Assembly (NCBI RefSeq): GCF_008195825.1
Contig: NZ_CP043329.1
Location: forward strand, 62,001-126,000
Length of the DNA stretch: 64,000 nt
Reading direction: 5' to 3'
DNA from: Pedobacter aquae
GTDB lineage: Bacteria > Bacteroidota > Bacteroidia > Sphingobacteriales > Sphingobacteriaceae
Of this stretch, positions 23,731 to 58,051 are shown piece by piece (position 1 is the stretch's first letter; every line of letters starts with the position of its first letter). Position numbers and translations under genes: made by a program. Under the pieces are notes generated by a model. The model did not search any database and was not told the origin of the DNA. It saw nothing but the letters and a program-made list of their open reading frames with translations.

Positions 23731-24834
23731 ATGAAACTTAACTTAAACATACAACCACTAAGCAGCTGGATGAAGGTATCTAGCGAGCCATTAATCATCT
23801 CTGGACCATGTAGTGCAGAAACAGAAGAGCAATTATTAGCAACTGCTCATTTAGTAAAAAACACAGGTAAAGTAAGTGTTTTAAGAGCAGGTATCTGGAA
23901 GCCAAGAACTCGTCCAGGAGAATTTGAAGGTATCGGAAGCATCGGTTTACAATGGTTAAAAAGAGCTAAAGAAGAAACAGGTTTACCTACAGCAGTAGAG
24001 GTAGCAACAGCAAAACACGTTGAAGAAGCTTTAGCAGCAGGTGTTGATATCCTTTGGATTGGTGCTCGTTCTACCGTAAACCCTTTTACAGTACAAGAAA
24101 TTGCTGATGCTTTACAAGGAGCAGATGTTCCAGTAATGGTTAAAAATCCTATCAACCCAGATTTAGCTTTATGGATTGGTGCTTTAGAGCGTATCAATAG
24201 AGCTGGAATCACCAAATTGGCAGCTATCCACCGTGGATTCTCTTCTTTTGAGAAATCAGCTTACAGAAACGAGCCTATGTGGGATTTAGCTATCCACCTT
24301 AAAACATTAGCACCAGAATTACCTATCTTGAACGACCCAAGTCATATTTGCGGTACAAGAGACTTAATTCCTTACATCTCTCAACAAGCATTAGACTTAG
24401 ATATGCAAGGTTTAATGATCGAGTCGCATATAGACCCTTCTGTTGCATGGACAGATGCTAAGCAACAAGTTACGCCAGCTGCCTTAACAGAAATCGTTAA
24501 TAACTTAACCATCAGAAAAGCAGATTCTTCAAATCCAGAGTTTACCGATAAATTACAAGGTTTAAGAGATTCAATTGATAGAATTGATGATCAAATCTTA
24601 CAAAAACTAGGCGAGCGTATGGCTTTGGTAGAGAAAATTGGTGAGTACAAAAGAGATAACGATGTAACCATCTTACAGGTTAACCGTTGGGAAGAAATTT
24701 TAGAGAAAAGAACTGCTTTAGCAAGTGCTTTAAAATTAGAAAAAGATTTCACAGAGAAGGTTTTAGAATTGATACACGGCGAGTCTATTCGTAAACAAAC
24801 CGAAATCATGAACGCTAAAACAGAACTAAACTAA
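23731..24834 (+). CDS. bifunctional DAHP synthase / chorismate mutase
   Basis: It catalyses the first shikimate-pathway step (PEP plus erythrose 4-phosphate to DAHP) and, through its C-terminus, chorismate to prephenate. It has 367 residues. The N-terminal type I-beta DAHP synthase (about 1-260) has ISGPCSAETEEQL, LRAGIWKPRTRPGEFEG and NDPSHICGTRD. The C-terminal AroQ chorismate mutase (about 275-360) has LRDSIDRIDDQILQKLGERM. The 59-base gap after pheA contains a short run of 7-base repeats (TGACCAT, TAACCAT). The stop overlaps the aroA ATG by one base. Confidence 0.95.
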   Translation: MKLNLNIQPLSSWMKVSSEPLIISGPCSAETEEQLLATAHLVKNTGKVSVLRAGIWKPRTRPGEFEGIGSIGLQWLKRAKEETGLPTAVEVATAKHVEEALAAGVDILWIGARSTVNPFTVQEIADALQGADVPVMVKNPINPDLALWIGALERINRAGITKLAAIHRGFSSFEKSAYRNEPMWDLAIHLKTLAPELPILNDPSHICGTRDLIPYISQQALDLDMQGLMIESHIDPSVAWTDAKQQVTPAALTEIVNNLTIRKADSSNPEFTDKLQGLRDSIDRIDDQILQKLGERMALVEKIGEYKRDNDVTILQVNRWEEILEKRTALASALKLEKDFTEKVLELIHGESIRKQTEIMNAKTELN

Positions 24835-26078
24835 TGAGCGGAAATATCCTCATCAGTAATGCTCCAAAACAAATACAGGAGACGATTAGGTTAACAGGCT
24901 CTAAAAGCGAAAGTAACAGAGCGCTTATCATACAGGCATTAAGTGGCGGAAAGGTTAAAGTAGAAAACCTTTCGGCTGCTGCCGATACCGTAACGCTAAA
25001 CCATATTTTAAATAGTTTAGCCCAAGAACCAGCAGAAGTAAATGTTGGTCCGGCTGGTACGGCTATGCGTTTCTTGGCTTCTTACCTCACGGTTAAAGGT
25101 GTTCAGACCGTATTAACCGGTACAGAGCGGATGAAACAACGTCCTATTGGTATCTTGGTTGATGCGCTTAATAAAATTGGTGGGCAAATTACTTATGTAG
25201 AAAAGGAAGGTTTTCCACCTTTACAGATAGCGCCTGCTTTTAAACAAACGCAAAATAAGGTCAGTATCAAGGGAGATATCAGCTCGCAATATATTACTTC
25301 TTTACTATTGGTTGCAGCCGCTTTAGAAGAAGGTTTGACATTAGACATTGAAGGCGAGTTAACCTCCAAACCTTATGTAGAGATGACATTAGGTTTCTTA
25401 GTTCAGTGTGGCATTCAGCATACTTGGGAAGATAACCAAATTACAATAGCACATCAGGAGTTTGAAAGCAGCACCCTTGTGGTAGAGCCAGATTGGAGCG
25501 CAGCATCTTATTGGTATGCTTTTGCTGCTTTGGCAGATGAGGCCACCATTACTTTACCTTATTTAAGACAAAACAGCTTACAAGGTGATAGCGTTATTGC
25601 AGCTATCATGGCGCATTTTGGTATTGCTACGGCTTACAGTGAAGAAGGTATCATCATCAAAAAAGTTCCTCATCAGCTTAGCGAAAAATTCTTTGATTTA
25701 AAAGACTGTCCGGATTTAGCCCAAACTGTTATTGTTTGTAGTGCTGCATTAGGGCATGAGGCTACTTTTACAGGCTTGGAAACTTTAAAAATTAAAGAAA
25801 CAGACCGCGTTGCCGCTTTACAAAACGAATTGGCTAAGATTGGAGTTAAACTTATTGAGGAAAACCTAAATTATACTTTAGATTGTAGCGGATTACATTT
25901 TCCAGATAAAATCAGTATTGCTACCTACGAAGATCACCGTATGGCGATGGCCTTTGCACCTTTAGCAAGCTTTGTTAAAGAGGTTGAAGTAGAAGAAGCA
26001 AACGTGGTAGAGAAATCATATCCAAGCTATTGGGAAGATGTAAAGAAAATTGGATTCAGACTGGATGATTTAAAGTAG
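24834..26078 (+). CDS. aroA: 3-phosphoshikimate 1-carboxyvinyltransferase (EPSP synthase)
   Basis: It joins PEP to shikimate 3-phosphate, step 6 of the shikimate pathway. It has 414 residues. Visible motifs are LTGSKSESNRALI, VGPAGTAMRFLASYL (the Gly-rich PEP-binding loop), KGDISSQYITSLL, LKIKETDRVAALQNELAKIG and YEDHRMAMAFAPLA. It starts within the stop of the DAHP synthase gene. Its own TAG stop lies inside a short 7-base repeat run (GTAGAAA, GTAAAAA) that leads into the palindromic array. Confidence 0.96.
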   Translation: MSGNILISNAPKQIQETIRLTGSKSESNRALIIQALSGGKVKVENLSAAADTVTLNHILNSLAQEPAEVNVGPAGTAMRFLASYLTVKGVQTVLTGTERMKQRPIGILVDALNKIGGQITYVEKEGFPPLQIAPAFKQTQNKVSIKGDISSQYITSLLLVAAALEEGLTLDIEGELTSKPYVEMTLGFLVQCGIQHTWEDNQITIAHQEFESSTLVVEPDWSAASYWYAFAALADEATITLPYLRQNSLQGDSVIAAIMAHFGIATAYSEEGIIIKKVPHQLSEKFFDLKDCPDLAQTVIVCSAALGHEATFTGLETLKIKETDRVAALQNELAKIGVKLIEENLNYTLDCSGLHFPDKISIATYEDHRMAMAFAPLASFVKEVEVEEANVVEKSYPSYWEDVKKIGFRLDDLK

Positions 26079-26112
26079 AAAGTAAAAAGTACAGCGTAGA
26101 AAGTAGCTGGGT
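26079..26112. repeat. 7-base periodic repeat after aroA
   Basis: The sequence steps through GTAGAAA, GTAAAAA, GTACAGC, GTAGAAA, GTAGCTG with exact 7-base spacing, beginning at the aroA stop codon itself. Confidence 0.6.
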
Positions 26113-26134
26113 GTCTTTTGCGTTCGTTTTAATC

Positions 26135-27480
26135 ATAGCCCAAGGTTTAAACCTTGGGCTAAAAGATAAATCTTGCGCTCGTTTTAATCATAGCCCAAGG
26201 TTTAAACCTTGGGCTATAAGATAAATCTTGCGCTCGTTTGTAACGAGTGTTTAACATGGTCTAGCGATTCAATCGCTTTAAAGATATATGCACATCATAG
26301 CCCAAGGTTTAAACCTCGGGCTATAAGATAAATCTTGCGCTCGTTTGTAACGAGTGCTTAACATGGTTTAGCGATTCAATCGCGTTAAAGATATATGCAC
26401 ATCATAGCCCTAGGTTTAAACCTAGGGCTATAAGATAGAAAAGCTTTTGCGCTCGTTTGTAACGAGTGCTTAACATGGTTTAGCGATTCAATCGCGTTAA
26501 AGATATATGCACATCATAGCCCAAGGTTTAAACCTTGGGCTATAAGATAAATCTTGCGCTCGTTTGTAACGAGTGCTTAACATGGTTTAGCGATTCAATC
26601 GCGTTAAAGATATATGCACATCATAGCCCAAGGTTTAAACCTTGGGCTATAAGATAGAAAAGCTTTTGCGCTCGTTTGTAACGAGTGCTTAACATGGTTT
26701 AGCGATTCAATCGCGTTAAAGATATATGCACATCATAGCCCAAGGTTTAACCTTGGGCTATAAGATAAATCTTGCGCTCGTTTGTAACGAGTGCTTAACA
26801 TGGTTTAGCGATTCAATCGCGTTAAAGATATATGCACATCATAGCCCTAGGTTTAAACCTAGGGCTATAAGATAGAAAAGCTTTTGCGCTCGTTTGTAAC
26901 GAGTGCTTAACATGGTTTAGCGATTCAATCGCTTTAAAGATATGCACATCATAGCCCAAGGTTTAAACCTTGGGCTATAAGATAGAAAAGCTTTTGCGCT
27001 CGTTTGTAACGAGTGCTTAACATGGTTTAGCGATTCAATCGCGTTAAAGATATATGCACATCATAGCCCTAGGTTTAAACCTAGGGCTATAAGATAGAAA
27101 AGCTTTTGCGCTCGTTTGTAACGAGTGCTTAACATGGTTTAGCGATTCAATCGCGTTAAAGATATATGCACATCATAGCCCAAGGTTTAAACCTTGGGCT
27201 ATAAGATAAATCTTGCGCTCGTTTGTAACGAGTGCTTAACATGGTTTAGCGATTCAATCGCGTTAAAGATATATGCACATCATAGCCCTAGGTTTAAACC
27301 TAGGGCTATAAGATAGAAAAGCTTTTGCGCTCGTTTGTAACGAGTGCTTAACATGGTTTAGCGATTCAATCGCGTTAAAGATATATGCACATCATAGCCC
27401 TAGGTTTAACCTTGGGCTATAAGATAAATCTTGCGCTCGTTTGTAACGAGTGCTTAACATGGTCTAGCGATTCAATCGCT
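26135..27480. repeat. tandem array of 13 palindrome-bearing repeat units between aroA and aroC
   Basis: Each unit carries a 28-bp perfect palindrome whose left arm is ATAGCCCAAGGTTT or ATAGCCCTAGGTTT. Then come a short inverted repeat (AAGATAAATCTT or AAAAGCTTTT), the hairpin CTCGTTTGTAACGAG and the hairpin GCGATTCAATCGC, and a linker ending GATATATGCACATC. Palindromes begin at 26135, 26190, 26297, 26404, 26516, 26623, 26735, 26841, 26951, 27063, 27175, 27282 and 27394. After the first, which is 55 bases from its neighbour, the spacing is 106-112 bases, mostly 107 or 112. Copies 7 and 13 are one base shorter. Alternative arms change on both sides together, so base pairing is kept. It contains no gene. 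Confidence 0.93.
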
Positions 27481-27492
27481 TTAATTATATAA

Positions 27493-27537
27493 GAACCAGC
27501 AACCGGCAACCAAAAACTGGCAACCGGCAACTGAAAA
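27493..27537. repeat. 7-base periodic repeat upstream of aroC
   Basis: AACCAGC, AACCGGC, AACCAAA, AACTGGC, AACCGGC, AACTGAA follow each other at exact 7-base intervals. The reverse complement (GCCGGTT/GCCAGTT) is the same heptamer type as at 32395-32430 and 33200-33245. It ends 20 bases before the aroC ATG. Confidence 0.65.
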
Positions 27538-27556
27538 CCGATAAATAAATAAAAAC

Positions 27557-28645
27557 ATGGCAGGAAATTCATTCGGAAAAGTATTTAGAATCACCACATT
27601 TGGCGAATCGCATGGAGCGGCTATAGGCGTCATCATAGATGGCTGTCCGCCCAATATAGCGTTAGACTTAGATTTTATCCAGTACGAGCTGGATAAACGT
27701 AAACCAGGGCAATCTAAAATTACCACCCAAAGAAAAGAATCAGACACCTGTCAGATACTTTCAGGGGTTTTTGAAGGTAAAACAACAGGAACACCTATCG
27801 CTATCGTTATCCCAAATGAAGATCAGAAATCAAAAGATTACGATCATAATAAGGACACTTTCAGGCCTTCACATGCAGATTATACTTATCAGCATAAATA
27901 TGGGATAAGAGACCATAGAGGAGGAGGCAGGTCATCAGCTCGTGAAACTGCAGCTCGTGTAGCAGCAGGTGCTATTGCTAAGTTAGCTTTAAAAAAGGTA
28001 GGGATAGAGGTAGTAGCACACGTTTCTTCTGTAGGCACTATTGATGCTCCACATATCGATTTTACTTCCGTAGAAGATTTCGAAGCCTTAAGAGAAAGTA
28101 ATATTGTAAGATGTGCAGACCCGTCTACAGCAAAGGAAATGATTAACCTGATAGATCAAATCAGAAAAGAAGGCGATACCATAGGAGGTAAAGTAAGCTG
28201 TATCGTTAAAAATTGCCCGGTAGGATTAGGAGAGCCCGTTTTTGATAAGCTACATGCAGATTTAGGCAAAGCCATGTTGAGTATCAATGCCGTACATGGC
28301 TTTGATTATGGTTCTGGCTTTGATGGCTCTACCATGCGTGGCTCAGAGCATAACGATATTTTTGAAAAGAACCATTTAGGTGATGTGATTACCAGAACCA
28401 ATTTTTCTGGTGGTATACAAGGAGGTATTTCTAATGGTATGGATATCAATTTCAGGGTTGCTTTTAAACCTGTGGCTACCATCATGACCAACCAACAAAC
28501 GGTTAATAAGGATGGTGATGCTGCGGAAATCAAAGGAAAAGGCCGACATGATCCTTGTGTAGTCCCAAGAGCCGTTGCCATTGTAGAAGCCATGGCCGCA
28601 CTGGTCATCATCGACCATTATCTGAGGAATAACTTGTATCAATAG
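27557..28645 (+). CDS. aroC: chorismate synthase
   Basis: It makes chorismate from EPSP with reduced FMN, step 7 of the shikimate pathway. It has 362 residues. Family signatures are [17 protein letters not shown] at the N-terminus, [20 protein letters not shown] in the middle and the Arg-rich [11 protein letters not shown] near the end. It is separated from aroA by the palindromic array but ends the same gene group; a terminator follows at once. Whether it is still co-transcribed with aroA is uncertain. Confidence 0.97.
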
Positions 28646-28752: not shown

Positions 28753-28908
28753 TCTAACCACCCAACAAACTAACCACCTAACAAACTAACCACCTAACAA
28801 ACTAACCACCCAACAAACTAACCACCTAACAAACTAACCACCTAACAAACTAACCACCTAACAAACTAACCACCCAACAAACTAACCCCCAACAAACTAA
28901 CCCCCCAC
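28753..28908. repeat. G-free tandem array (AACCACCT/AACAAACT type)
   Basis: About 150 bases of alternating AACCACCT and AACAAACT octamers (16-base period) with no G on the plus strand until its end. On the minus strand it reads GGTTAG and TTGTTAG repeatedly. Its right end contains the TAG stop (28897-28899) of the acetyltransferase gene. Confidence 0.85.
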
Positions 28909-30860: not shown

Positions 30861-32858
30861 TTAATGAGTGTTGATATAATGATACATCGTTTGATAATGA
30901 TGAAGGATATTCCCTTCTTCATAATCCTTTCTAATGGTGTTTTGTAAGCCATTAAAGGCTATGTCTCTATTTATGATAGCTTTATAAGCTTTTATTAAAC
31001 TCTCTTTTAAAGCCGGAGCTGTTCTTTTACAAACCCATCCTAAATCCTTCTCTTTTACATAATCACTCAAACCTACGTTTTCGGTAATAAGTACTGGAGT
31101 TCCGCTATACAAGCTTTCAATAACTACGTTAGCAAAATTCTCATCATAAGAAGGTAAAACAAATAAGTCATGTGCTGCCAATAAGTCAAACTTTTCATCC
31201 CCATAAACAGGGCCTAACCAATGAACACGCTTAGCAAAGCTCTTCTTCTTAATTCCATCTTCACTTATCACTTCATGCTGTTCTCCACCCAGCCTACCTT
31301 CTTCGGTATTCGGTCTTCTTTCCCAACTTTCCACTTCACGCACAACTTCCTGCCGCTCACCATCCAGTCTACGGTCTGCGGACTTCGGTCCTCGGTCCTC
31401 AGACTTAAACCTTTCAACATCACTTATCCCTTCTATCTGCTCTCCATCCAGTCTACGGTCTGCGGACTGCGGTCCTCGGTCTTCTTCCAACTTCAATCTT
31501 TCAACATCACTTATCCCTTCTATCTGCTCTCCATCCAGTCTACGGTCTGCGGACTTCGGTCCTCGGTCTTCTTCCAACTTCAATCTTTCAACATCACTTA
31601 TCACTTCCTGCTGCTCTCCATCCAGCCTACGGTCTGCGGACTTCGGTCCTCCGTCCTCAGACTTCAACCTTTCAACATATTCCATTTCACCATCTCCAAC
31701 AACACTCAATTCCCAAGGAAAATCTAACTCATTCAAAACTTCAAATAACAGCTCAAGCCCCTTTTTCTCTTCTATACGAGATAAAAAGATCAATTTTAAA
31801 GTACAATCTATTTTTTCTTTTTTGTTTAGCTTTTTCTCCCAAGGGAGCTTTACAAAGTTTGGGATATTAAAAATAGACTTTGGTTTTAGTAAAGCTTGCG
31901 TATCTCCAGCCTCCTTAGCGCTGGTTGTATGAAAATAACAGGCATTCAACAAATGTTTACCCAATAATTGATGAAATACCTTTTTTAATAAACTTTTATC
32001 TTTTTCAAAAGAGTATAAACTAAGGGTGCCTCTTGGGCTTAAAACTACCTTCACGCCTCTACATAAAGCAATTAAGCAAGCAGGCATGGTAACCAAATTC
32101 CACCAAGCATGAATATGTACCACATCAAACTGTTTTACAGTTTTCCATAAATGCCATAAAAGGGCAGGAGAGAAGTGACTATGATCTTTGGTTATGCGCT
32201 TAAAATAGCTTACCTCAACACCATCTACCATTTTAGTTTCCCCATTCTGGTAGGGCAGTTCCTCTTTCCCATTAGCCAAAGTCGTATAAACAGAAATTAT
32301 CATCTTGTCAGGCTGAGCGGAGTCGAAGCCCCCATTCCCTAACCCCGTTCTGCTATCCCCCTCCAGTCTTCCGTCCTCGGTCATCGGACTTCTAGTTGTC
32401 GGTTGCCAGTTGTCAGTTGCCAGTTCTGGGTTATGTGCCGTCAGGCTGTGGTCATCGGTCATCGGACTTCTACCATCTGTTTCCAGTTCGCTGTTCCCTG
32501 TTTCCAGTTTTGTATCTATTAGACTATTTCTCTGCGGTCTGCGGTCCTCGGTCATCGGACTTCTACCATCTGTTTCCAGTTCGCTGTTCCCTGTTTCCAG
32601 TTTTGTATCTATTAGACTATTTCTCTGCGGTCTGCGGTCCTCGGTCATCGGACTTCTACCATCTGTTTCCAGTTCGCTGTTTCCTGTTGCCAGTTCTGGG
32701 TTATGTGCCGCCAGGCTGCGGTCCTCGGTCACCGGACTCCCCAAACCTCGCCTTTCGCTTTCAGCTTGAATTTCCTCACATAACTTCGCCACAGACATCA
32801 CTGGCCCGCCGTAAACGTATGCTGGTTTATATGATGCTGTAATATGGAGGATTTTCAT
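30861..32858 (-). CDS. family 4 glycosyltransferase with two large in-frame repeat insertions
   Basis: The core is a GT-B enzyme like the XrtY-associated glycosyltransferases: MKILHITASYKPAYVYGGPV at the N-terminus, VVHIHAWWNLVTMP, KVVLSPRGTLSLYSF, LIFLSRIEEKKGLELL, and the nucleotide-sugar site FVLPSYDENFANVVIESL. It has 665 residues, but about 154 (residues 32-185) and 141 (about residues 396-536) are low-complexity, highly polar repeat sequence inserted in frame. Removing them leaves about 370 residues, the usual size. The first insertion falls after the N-terminal Rossmann helix, the second after WELSVVGDGEMEYVE, both at likely surface loops. Whether the protein still works is unknown. 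Its ATG overlaps the stop of the preceding fragment as ATGA. Confidence 0.85.
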   Translation of the reverse strand: MKILHITASYKPAYVYGGPVMSVAKLCEEIQAESERRGLGSPVTEDRSLAAHNPELATGNSELETDGRSPMTEDRRPQRNSLIDTKLETGNSELETDGRSPMTEDRRPQRNSLIDTKLETGNSELETDGRSPMTDDHSLTAHNPELATDNWQPTTRSPMTEDGRLEGDSRTGLGNGGFDSAQPDKMIISVYTTLANGKEELPYQNGETKMVDGVEVSYFKRITKDHSHFSPALLWHLWKTVKQFDVVHIHAWWNLVTMPACLIALCRGVKVVLSPRGTLSLYSFEKDKSLLKKVFHQLLGKHLLNACYFHTTSAKEAGDTQALLKPKSIFNIPNFVKLPWEKKLNKKEKIDCTLKLIFLSRIEEKKGLELLFEVLNELDFPWELSVVGDGEMEYVERLKSEDGGPKSADRRLDGEQQEVISDVERLKLEEDRGPKSADRRLDGEQIEGISDVERLKLEEDRGPQSADRRLDGEQIEGISDVERFKSEDRGPKSADRRLDGERQEVVREVESWERRPNTEEGRLGGEQHEVISEDGIKKKSFAKRVHWLGPVYGDEKFDLLAAHDLFVLPSYDENFANVVIESLYSGTPVLITENVGLSDYVKEKDLGWVCKRTAPALKESLIKAYKAIINRDIAFNGLQNTIRKDYEEGNILHHYQTMYHYINTH
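31250..31673. repeat. tandem repeat insertion 2 inside the glycosyltransferase gene (84-87 bp units)
   Basis: Four to five units of 28-29 codons; on the plus strand each contains CAGTCTACGGTCTGCGGAC and CTTCGGTCCTCGGTC. The translated unit is DVERLK-(S/L)E(E)D-RGPKSADRRLDGEQ-plus a variable end. Unit length stays a multiple of three. The CGGTCNN heptamer rhythm is the same as at 32304-32765 and 33179-33610. Confidence 0.9.
32304..32765. repeat. tandem repeat insertion 1 inside the glycosyltransferase gene (93-bp units)
   Basis: Exact 93-bp units (31 codons) containing CGGTCCTCGGTCATCGGACT, then CTGTTTCCAGTTCGCTGTTC, then CCAGTTTTGTATCTATTAGA. At both ends it changes to 7-base runs of the GTCAGTT/GCCAGTT kind. 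The promoter-distal edge (32306-32330) is a copy of the dispersed element GGCTTCGACTCCGCTCAGCC in reverse orientation, translated as GFDSAQPD. Confidence 0.9.
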
Positions 32859-54387: not shown

Positions 54388-54942
54388 TGTAGTTATAGCT
54401 ATAATTTGAGGTAAAAATACAGTAAGTTTTAGATATAACTAAAACTTTAATGTGTATTTTATAAGAACTTTCTCTTAAAATAAAAAATCAATCTTCAAAA
54501 ATATAATCACTCACTAATGAACTAGTGACTAATAAACTAATTACTAAATAAAAACTCACTCCATTAAAAATAACCATAGGGCTTCGACTCCCTGTCTGCC
54601 GAAGGCAGACGCTCAGCCTGACAATTCTTAATAATGACATCTTAGCACTCACTATCGACCATCAACCATTACCCACCGACCATTTTCTATCGACCATTTT
54701 CCATCAATCATTGCTCACCGACCATTGCCCATTGTCCATCAACCATTGCCCATTGACTCCCTACTCATGAACTAACCCCTAACCACCTAACAAACTAACC
54801 CCTAACCACCTAACAAACTAACCCCTAACCACCTAACAAACTAACCCCTAACCACCTAACAAACCAACCCCTAACCACCTAACAAACTAACCACCTAACA
54901 AACTAACCAACTAACAAACTAACCAACTAACAAACTAACCAC
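54388..54942. repeat. gene-free region filled with several repeat types
   Basis: It contains 7-base ACTAATA/ACTAATT steps (54521-54547), a dispersed GGCTTCGACTCC element (54579-54630), ACCATCGACC-type heptamers (54655-54770) and then the G-free octamer array (54771-54942). I see no coding potential. Confidence 0.8.
54579..54630. repeat. dispersed CTTCGACTCC-CTCAGCCTGAC element with inserted hairpin
   Basis: The element seen intact at 55901-55932 (GGCTTCGACTCCGCTCAGCC then TGACAATTCTTA) is here split by GTCTGCC-GAA-GGCAGAC, a perfect 7-bp hairpin with a 3-base loop. Confidence 0.8.
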
Positions 54943-54945
54943 CTA
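54771..54945. repeat. G-free tandem array ending in the permease stop codon
   Basis: Repeats of AACCCCT, AACCACCT, AACAAACT and AACCAACT without G on the plus strand. The final CTA (54943-54945) is the TAG stop codon of the Wzm-like permease on the minus strand. Confidence 0.85.
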
Positions 54946-56444: not shown

Positions 56445-56929
56445 ATGTCACAATTTTCTCTTACAAATTTACAGAAATATTTTTATTCACTATCGACCAT
56501 TAACTACCATACCAATCACTCCATCACAACTCACTCCATCAAAAATAATTGAAAGGCTTCGACTCCCACTTCGACTCCGCTCAGTGTGACAATTCTTACT
56601 CATAACTATTGACCATCGATCATTGACCATCAACCATAAACCAATCCCTAAATCAAAAATCACTCCATCAAAAATATCATCATCCACTAATGAACCAATG
56701 ACTCCCTACTAACCAACTAACCAACCAACAAACTAACCAACTAGACCCTAACCAACTAACCCCTAACAAACTAACCCACTAATCCCTAACCAACTAACCC
56801 TAACAAACTAACCAACTAGACCCTAACCAACCAACCAACTAGAACCTAACAAACTAACCCCTAACAAACTAACCAACTGGACCCTAACCAACCAACCAAC
56901 TAGAACCTAACAAACTAACCAACTAGTCC
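56445..56929. repeat. gene-free region with dispersed element and repeat arrays
   Basis: It contains a CTTCGACTCC element at 56554-56598 with a partial duplication (CTTCGACTCC appears twice), ACCATCGATC-type heptamers at 56600-56640, and from 56704 a 7-8-base periodic G-poor tract of AACTAAC, CAACCAA, CTAACCC and similar units. No coding potential is seen. Confidence 0.8.
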
Positions 56930-56938
56930 CTAACCAAC
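56704..56938. repeat. G-poor tandem array ending inside the glycosyltransferase gene
   Basis: Long run of AACCAACT, AACCCCT and AACAAACT units. It continues into the 3' end of the adjacent minus-strand gene, where CTA at 56930-56932 is that gene's TAG stop and the preceding codons give the final Val-Gly. Confidence 0.83.
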
Positions 56939-58051
56939 CAGTCTCTCAACCTCTCCCGAAAACTTCTCATATGCAAACTTCTCCAAACAAGCATGTTGAA
57001 TAGCTTTCTTCTCTTGTATGGATAATTTATTTTGAGACAAACTTTTTAGGGCTTCTTGAATAGCTTTGAAATCTCGAGGATTCACTAAAATACCAGCATC
57101 AGGGTTTTGTACAGCATCAATAGAGCCATCTTGATTTCCCGCTACTACTCGCAACCCACAAGCTTGCGCTTCAATAAACACCAGCCCAAAGCCTTCCTTT
57201 TCACTAGGTAAAACAAAAGCATCAGCAGCCTGGTAATAGTTGCTAATAGCTTCATCAGCAATAAATCCCGTGAGTATAATTTGTTTTTGTATGTTTAAGC
57301 TTATAGCCAAATCTTGTATACGTTGGTATTCTGCATCCTCGTATTTACCACCTAGCATATAATAAGCCGCTATACCTTCATCTTTTAGTGCAGCAATGGC
57401 TCGAATAACCAAATCATAATTTTTTTGTTGTTCGCTATTTTTTAAACGAGTCAAAGCAAAAAACAAAGGAGCATCAGCTGGAATAGCATAAAGCTTGCGG
57501 ATAGCAGATTCATCATCTTCCTTAATTTCTGGAATAACAAAATAAGGGTCAAGTGCATTGGGGACTACTTTTATCCTTTCAGCTTGTATAGCATGCCTTT
57601 TTGTTATTTCACTCTTCGTAAAGGCGCTTACCGCAATAATTTCATCTGCAACTTCTAATAACCTTCTTTTAAAGCCCTTTAAAGGTCGCCATACTTCAAT
57701 ACCATGTGTCCATAAAATAATCCGGCATGTTGGTTTTAGAAACTTGATAAAACAGGCAATAGGGGCCAGGTTAATATGACTTAATATGATGGTATTATAT
57801 TTGAATGCTGTAAAACAAGAAGCAAGAGCACCAAGTTTAGGCGATAAGCCATAAGCTTTAAAATGCATTTTTTTTACATAACGCTCATCCGCCAAGTCAT
57901 CATAAAGGGAAATCATCCGAAAATGTATTTTTCCTTCTTGCTGAAAATTCTGAAGAGCAAAGGCAATGCCTCTACATACTTTTTCTATGCCGCCAGTTAA
58001 ACTAAAAGTACGAAGAGTAAGGAAAAGAACTTTTTGAGGTTTGGGAATCAA
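56930..58051 (-). CDS. family 4 glycosyltransferase
   Basis: A GT-B enzyme of 373 residues: VLFLTLRTFSLTGGIEKVCR at the N-terminus, RIILWTHGIEVWRPLKGFKR, then PLFFALTRLKNSEQQKNYDL and AFVLPSEKEGFGLVFIEAQA with the E-x7-E donor site. It is the first gene of the polysaccharide region on the minus strand, and its last two residues and stop lie in a repeat array. Confidence 0.92.
   Translation of the reverse strand: MIPKPQKVLFLTLRTFSLTGGIEKVCRGIAFALQNFQQEGKIHFRMISLYDDLADERYVKKMHFKAYGLSPKLGALASCFTAFKYNTIILSHINLAPIACFIKFLKPTCRIILWTHGIEVWRPLKGFKRRLLEVADEIIAVSAFTKSEITKRHAIQAERIKVVPNALDPYFVIPEIKEDDESAIRKLYAIPADAPLFFALTRLKNSEQQKNYDLVIRAIAALKDEGIAAYYMLGGKYEDAEYQRIQDLAISLNIQKQIILTGFIADEAISNYYQAADAFVLPSEKEGFGLVFIEAQACGLRVVAGNQDGSIDAVQNPDAGILVNPRDFKAIQEALKSLSQNKLSIQEKKAIQHACLEKFAYEKFSGEVERLVG

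Follow-up and report, generated by a model that had tools for sequence, protein, structure and literature searches.

A 13-unit palindromic array between aroA and aroC appears to be a composite of two dispersed repeat families that accompany different small transposases

Introduction

What kind of element is a regular array of palindromes between two same-strand aro genes, and how did it come to multiply there? The array lies in a 64,000-nucleotide stretch of the Pedobacter aquae genome, which we refer to as the window. A preliminary description, made from the letters of the window, had noted thirteen units containing palindromes with apparently compensated alleles, and had offered amplification by a REP-associated transposase-like activity, a chromosome-structure site and mRNA stabilisation as possible explanations. 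Here, we compare the array with the rest of its genome, with 18 genomes of the genus and with transposase relatives in other species. On comparative sequence evidence, the array unit is a composite of two dispersed repeat families, a two-hairpin core and a palindrome (P), each of which goes with a different small transposase.

Results

Structure of the array

The preliminary report of a thirteen-unit array is confirmed by the unit starts, the alignment of the units and TRF (Table 1). The units begin with ATAGCCC at positions 26135, 26190, 26297, 26404, 26516, 26623, 26735, 26841, 26951, 27063, 27175, 27282 and 27394, giving spacings of 55, 107, 107, 112, 107, 112, 106, 110, 112, 112, 107 and 112 bp. 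The two unit lengths first given, 107 and 112 bp, are thus the main ones, but variants of 106 and 110 bp also occur, and unit 1 is cut short at 55 bp, which is why complete cores number one fewer than palindromes. Each unit contains four inverted repeats, as had been described. The TRF score is far above threshold at periods of 112 and 219 bp, and the longer period reflects a two-unit pattern: aligned units differ at a mean of 3.6 positions at lag 2, versus 5.4 at lag 1 and 5.4 at lag 3. The variants GTCTAG and CGCTTT are common to units 2 and 13 and absent from most inner units, as expected if the array expands from the inside and becomes uniform there. The array matched no Rfam family at its gathering score and gave sub-threshold chance matches only, and a simple pattern for a Bacteroidetes-type promoter had no match in 25500-27560, a result that proves little.

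Table 1. Features of the array, its neighbours and the two transposase genes (window positions, except for the last two rows, which are genome positions)
Feature	Position	Strand	Remarks
aroA (3-phosphoshikimate 1-carboxyvinyltransferase), upstream neighbour	24834..26078	+	284 bits, just below curated cut-off of 287.25
Older truncated core, 5' remnant TTTTGCGTTCGTTTTAATC	26116..26134	+	similar remnant at the same place in sister species
Whole array	26135..27480	+	13 palindromes and 12 complete cores, head to tail throughout
Core, unit 2	26227..26280	+	core model match
Core, unit 3	26334..26387	+	core model match
Palindrome P, T/A allele, example	26404..26431		same allele in the only unit of G004
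Short inverted repeat, l form AAAAGCTTTT	26439..26448
Core, unit 4	26446..26499	+	core model match
Palindrome P, A/T allele, example	26516..26543		relatives at dispersed places
Short inverted repeat, s form AAGATAAATCTT	26544..26555		P-core junction
Core, unit 5 (example)	26553..26606	+	9-bp hairpin 1 and 5-bp hairpin 2, each with a 3-nt loop, joined by a 13-nt linker
Core, unit 6	26665..26718	+	core model match
Core, unit 7	26771..26824	+	core model match
Core, unit 8	26883..26936	+	core model match
Core, unit 9	26993..27046	+	core model match
Core, unit 10	27105..27158	+	core model match
Core, unit 11	27212..27265	+	core model match
Core, unit 12	27324..27377	+	core model match
Palindrome P, unit 13, hybrid T/T	27394..27420		uncompensated, minus one central base
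Core, unit 13	27430..27483	+	core model match
aroC (chorismate synthase), downstream neighbour	27557..28645	+	
RAYT-A gene	G000:C1:2294181-2294753		cores on both sides: same strand upstream, opposite strand downstream
Y1-B gene	3148565-3148996		flanked by P-type palindromes of 26-28 bp

The palindrome had been reported in two alleles altered on both arms together. These alleles are real, with seven A/T and four T/A units, but the remaining two of the 13 are uncompensated (A/C at 26297 and T/T at 27394), and a central base is missing in two of the 13 palindromes. Because 13 tandem units of shared descent amount to one or two events, we rejected the array alleles as a measure of selection for pairing; the broader claim that pairing is conserved finds its support in dispersed copies and in other species, where pairing is kept. 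The adjacent short inverted repeat, said to exist in two compensated palindromic forms, does not bear this out. Its s and l forms pair in different registers, so they do not represent compensation within the same pairs, and a 5-bp inverted repeat arises in those segments in 8-9% of shuffles. The difference between 107 and 112 bp amounts to one 5-bp indel and two substitutions at this site.

Other repeats were seen in the window. Words of 14-23 bp, for example CTAACCACCCAACAAA, form low-complexity tandem arrays at 28754-28907, 54770-54945 and 56709-56943. A 665-aa ORF on the minus strand (30861-32858), which we take to be glycosyltransferase-like, has in-frame tandem repeats at 31355-31678 and 32446-32695 that resemble words in the nearby segment 33214-33563; its orthologue in the genus genome G007 has 601 aa and is 71% identical over the matched part.

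A two-hairpin core dispersed in the genome

The core, about 50 bp of a long and a short hairpin, was modelled over 54 positions from 17 copies, four degenerate or half-lost copies being excluded from the alignment. With the cut-off set at E 0.01, at least 56 copies at 21 places were found in the genome (3.85 Mb), a count that may be a lower bound because 150 of 2593 first-look candidates were scored. The core is therefore present at 20 places besides the array, and single units, for which the preliminary description had suggested a search, do exist elsewhere. At E 1e-4 or better, there are 50 matches in the genome itself, 34 in G007, 25 in G004, 20 in G003, 6 in G002 and none in the other 13 of the 18 genus genomes. 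Every one of the 34 distinct dispersed copies tested falls outside ORFs of at least 100 aa; the test set also included two rows that duplicate copies, and there was no match at locus L171. In the 17 modelled copies, hairpin 2 has an outer pair that is A-U in six, U-A in four, G-C in three, C-G in one and G-U in one, and is unpaired in two.

At its 5' foot the core has a conserved CTT preceding a G-C base pair. It was considered as a classical GTAG REP and rejected, the GTAG/GTGG foot being absent. A REPIN consists of two inverted REPs, and the core was likewise rejected as a REPIN or BIME of this kind, since strand is uniform at 10 of the 11 multi-copy places, the exception being the locus of a RAYT gene.

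That gene, RAYT-A, is of the kind (RAYT/IS200-like transposase) for which the preliminary description had proposed a search, and the layout of the cores around it is identical in G007. Its product scores 99.9 bits against a cut-off of 80 for the NCBIfam model REP_Tyr_transpos NF047646. The catalytic residues H60, H62 and Y144 are invariant in 18 sequences, as in single-domain Y1 HUH enzymes, and the gene is flanked by repeats dispersed in the genome (the 56 cores), as is characteristic of a RAYT. A model built on an 18-row alignment (pLDDT 81.9) has as its best PDB chain 4er8 (E 1.4e-8), a REP transposase in complex with a REP hairpin; an alignment-free model was poor (pLDDT 41.7) and was left unused, and a PDB sequence search with RAYT-A returned no match. 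The protein carries the motifs NHLH, WQDGY and YIHNNP. Its close relatives are nearly all Bacteroidota, the nearest with names including Mucilaginibacter and Pedobacter. In the available text of PMC6006769, subclass 2.6 (group 5) is defined by NH[LIV]H, WQ and YIH[QN]NP motifs, a Bacteroidota host and non-GTAG structures. By motifs, host group and the non-GTAG structures beside it, RAYT-A is assigned to this subclass. An orthologue (86% identity or more) is present in three of the 18 genus genomes, all three among the five with cores (p 0.012, kinship ignored), and is split into two pieces in G004; G003 and G002 have cores and no orthologous RAYT. A second RAYT in the genome, at L004:1423-1974, is about 41% identical and has a different flanking repeat of its own, GCGCAAGTCTTAGCG.

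The two-hairpin geometry recurs at RAYT relatives in other species. Of 76 relative loci, we used 52, namely L091-L142 as ordered in the list; the remaining 24 rows, which include a few at 46-53% identity (L145, L147 and L148), were left out. At 31 of the 52, a 9+3+9 hairpin is followed 6-17 nt on by a 5+3+5 hairpin within 500 bp of the gene, compared with 0.3 expected from dinucleotide shuffles and 1 of 51 far controls. The strict geometry is missing at the other 21, including all 13 of L130 to L142. The linker between the hairpins is mostly 11-14 nt, and the arms differ by clade (CTCGTT/AACGAG, CGGATT/AATCCG and GCGAATT/AATTCGC). A 31-row table of hairpins was compiled from 29 of the 31 loci (minus L121 and L125) and two copies from the genome under study; pairing holds in every row by construction. 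Two properties that were not selected for emerged from it: many pair types occur at each hairpin position, and in 15 of the 31 rows the inner stem of hairpin 2 exactly repeats that of hairpin 1.

The palindrome family and Y1-B

The palindrome goes with a second gene, Y1-B. Its signature YIKNQKQHH matches Y---Q--HH, and it scores 71.4 bits against a cut-off of 55 for NCBIfam transpos_IS200; on this signature and the IS200-type core, Y1-B is assigned to subclass 1.2. P flanks Y1-B in its own genome and in G007 (99% identity), G011, G017 and G002. Across the 18 genus genomes, P is found in eight, Y1-B (50% identity or more) in seven and both in six (hypergeometric p 0.009, kinship ignored). In G010, Y1-B occurs with no P at the tolerance used; conversely, G004 and G015 lack Y1-B but each contain a single P.

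The association extends beyond the genus. From 39 matches in 81 family genomes we obtained 30 loci, of which 26 remained after four cut by contig ends were dropped. A palindrome with an arm of 10 or more lies within 350 bp in 12 of these 26 Y1-B homologues, on both sides in four; the corresponding figures for distant sequence and for shuffles are 1 of 26 and 0.9. The full Y---Q--HH is present in 20 of the 24 homologues whose translation was checked, and the sequence of the palindrome varies by clade.

We also compared 22 hand-chosen P references from eight genomes (11 distinct rows), two of them from the array. At pairs 6, 7 and 8, changes occur on both arms, and 96.4% of cells are paired, versus 86.7% in shuffles. 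The covariation score of 0.247 (versus 0.073) was reached by none of 500 shuffles; this signal is carried by the free positions only, because the search pattern for most copies fixes most positions. Of the nine places listed with a P-like palindrome outside the Y1-B island, four have a core no more than about 60 bp away, for which a hand calculation gives about 4e-6, a figure that hangs on a guessed 1.3% chance per place. The places without a core are at 207, 1557, 1575, 1596 and 2161 kb, and some are weak matches. In the flanks examined, neither this core nor P accompanies any of the genome's remaining Y1 genes (L002, L003 and the L004 RAYT).

Two observations were made near Y1-B. One P copy (L050:1501-1526; G000:C1:3146624-3146649) lies upstream of the gene within an open frame, presumably a restriction-modification gene, and leaves the frame unbroken. 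Upstream of the Y1-B copy in G007, four 72-bp head-to-tail units of P and flank occupy L280:3015-3256, where the genome under study has one.

The aroA-aroC gap in relatives

Of the 18 genus genomes, 16 have aroC, and aroA adjoins it in 12 of 15 relatives examined, plus the genome under study. The gap is 327 bp in G007, with three cores and one decayed P; 194 bp in G004, with one core and one P (the T/A allele, within a 38-bp perfect palindrome); and 158 bp in G003, with one core and one truncated core and no P. Neither core nor P was found in the gap of the nine other genus members with the adjoining pair. On this comparison, the large array is confined to this species among the genus genomes compared, and since the sister gaps contain between one and three cores and either one P or none, the 13-unit array appears to have grown locally. 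The core and truncated core were probably present first, with P arriving between or beside them.

Elsewhere in the genome, a second head-to-tail tandem array at L167:4100-6800 (G000:C1:144.6-147.3 kb) contains eight cores at spacings of 271, 341, 354 and 492 bp, together with duplicated 90-aa ORFs. This core array and the P array in G007 are head-to-tail expansions of the same elements that arose independently of the one described here.

Discussion

Our results support a model in which two kinds of non-autonomous palindromic repeat, each associated with a transposase, joined into a composite that was then amplified locally, a reading to which we assign a probability of roughly three in four. 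The array would represent a recent expansion of selfish or domesticated repeats, not a new regulator. The links of the core to RAYT-A and of P to Y1-B are drawn from association and comparative evidence. In this model, the core is, or once was, dispersed by the RAYT in the form of single-stranded DNA hairpins, and such travel would explain why pairing rather than sequence is conserved; the strand specificity of the hairpins and their association with single-strand transposases would likewise fit repeats moving as folded single strands. A palindrome spread by Y1-B would then have landed beside a core, and the repeated homology and hairpins of the composite would have allowed head-to-tail copies of it to accumulate through slippage during replication or through unequal exchange, a process that could also have produced the 219-bp two-unit pattern. 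We favor slippage or unequal exchange because the units include flanking DNA and the centre of the array is homogenised. A mild effect of the array on read-through from aroA to aroC is possible.

The main rival, which we regard as unlikely, though less so than the other alternatives, makes the transposase (RAYT-A or Y1-B) the builder of the array: it would have copied a circular single-stranded intermediate by a rolling-circle mechanism. Nunvar and colleagues proposed that BIMEs arise in this way, and their model, in the available text of PMC2817692, predicts modular tandem BIMEs. The near-identical head-to-tail units would fit, as would the tandem arrays that the same elements form in other flanking DNA (144.6-147.3 kb and G007). 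However, the ordinary flanking DNA within the units is equally explained by slippage, neither a junction nor a circle was seen, and the genome's own RAYT is a single gene distant from the array.

It is still less probable that the array is maintained for a role in RNA, with stable hairpins that protect or end a transcript and so set aroC dosage. The position between two same-strand aro genes would suit this role, the RNA of a unit folds well (-39.0 kcal/mol), and REPs elsewhere are hypothesised to stabilise mRNA (PMC3733652, in the part available). Yet nine genus members with the adjoining gene pair have neither repeat, three sister species have far fewer units, dispersed copies occur at 20 other places, and the Rfam search speaks against a known family.

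That a chance sequence unconnected with any transposase simply slipped locally, or that the array is an assembly artefact, is very improbable. The preliminary description had held that slippage would be indicated if there were no other copies and the unit count changed between assemblies. The copy number in the gap does differ, but between species, and the central units are nearly identical; against this, the core occurs at 20 other places and in sister genomes and flanks a RAYT, and the existence of dispersed copies refutes chance slippage as the full story. An artefact is further disfavored because the units differ in phase (A/T versus T/A, s versus l), unlike duplicated reads, and the genome is one contig. 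Least probable of all is a CRISPR or chromosome-organising array, for which the regular spacing and the gyrase-binding BIME-2 arrays of E. coli (PMC2817692, available text) might be cited, because the near-identical units of 107-112 bp are themselves palindromic and, as the preliminary description had correctly observed, contain no unique spacers between them.

Returning to the composite model, one tentative extension, which we consider doubtful, is that subclass 1.2 Y1 transposases are a second, independent REP-maker, dispersing perfect palindromes whose sequence follows the transposase clade while self-complementarity is kept, and in this lineage sharing sites with a subclass 2.6 RAYT that has a tandem long-plus-short hairpin as its cognate repeat; the array would then be a hybrid substrate of both transposases, amplified via single-stranded intermediates. 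More generally, the findings give the loosely described 'atypical' Bacteroidota RAYT repeat a definition, as a two-hairpin element, and open it to covariance-model searches and binding tests. They also give subclass 1.2 transposases, although described as generally without typical terminal structures, a candidate DNA substrate. The array itself would be an example from nature of two repeat families that fused and then multiplied jointly.

Among the closest known systems are the REP/BIME elements of RAYTs (TnpAREP), especially those of subclass 2.6 (group 5 of Bertels), whose structures are termed only 'atypical' in the available text of PMC6006769 and were found by manual inspection. The likeness lies in the RAYT motif type, the flanking hairpins with dispersed copies, the intergenic tandem clusters and the imperfect, strand-specific hairpin. 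In contrast to that system as so described, a long and a short hairpin here stand in direct order without a GT[AG]G foot, and clusters run head to tail instead of as inverted pairs. In the literature searched (PMC6006769, PMC3733652, PMC2817692, PMC8266576, PMC12306157 and PMC1525189, in the parts available), we found no account of the two-hairpin element or of subclass 1.2 palindromes, and we claim no priority. Y1-B resembles subclass 1.2 in its Y---Q--HH signature, low copy number and Bacteroidota host (judged from its relatives); members are described in the accessible part of PMC6006769 as generally lacking typical terminal IS200 structures, whereas palindromes here flank 12 of the 26 homologues tested. 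The landing of one repeat at or near another recalls IS insertion into REPs (PMC1525189, available text), except that the presumed inserted partner here is a short gene-less palindrome. Finally, like the REPINs of Pseudomonas, the core is a short non-autonomous repeat that goes with a RAYT, but it is made of two unequal hairpins in direct order.
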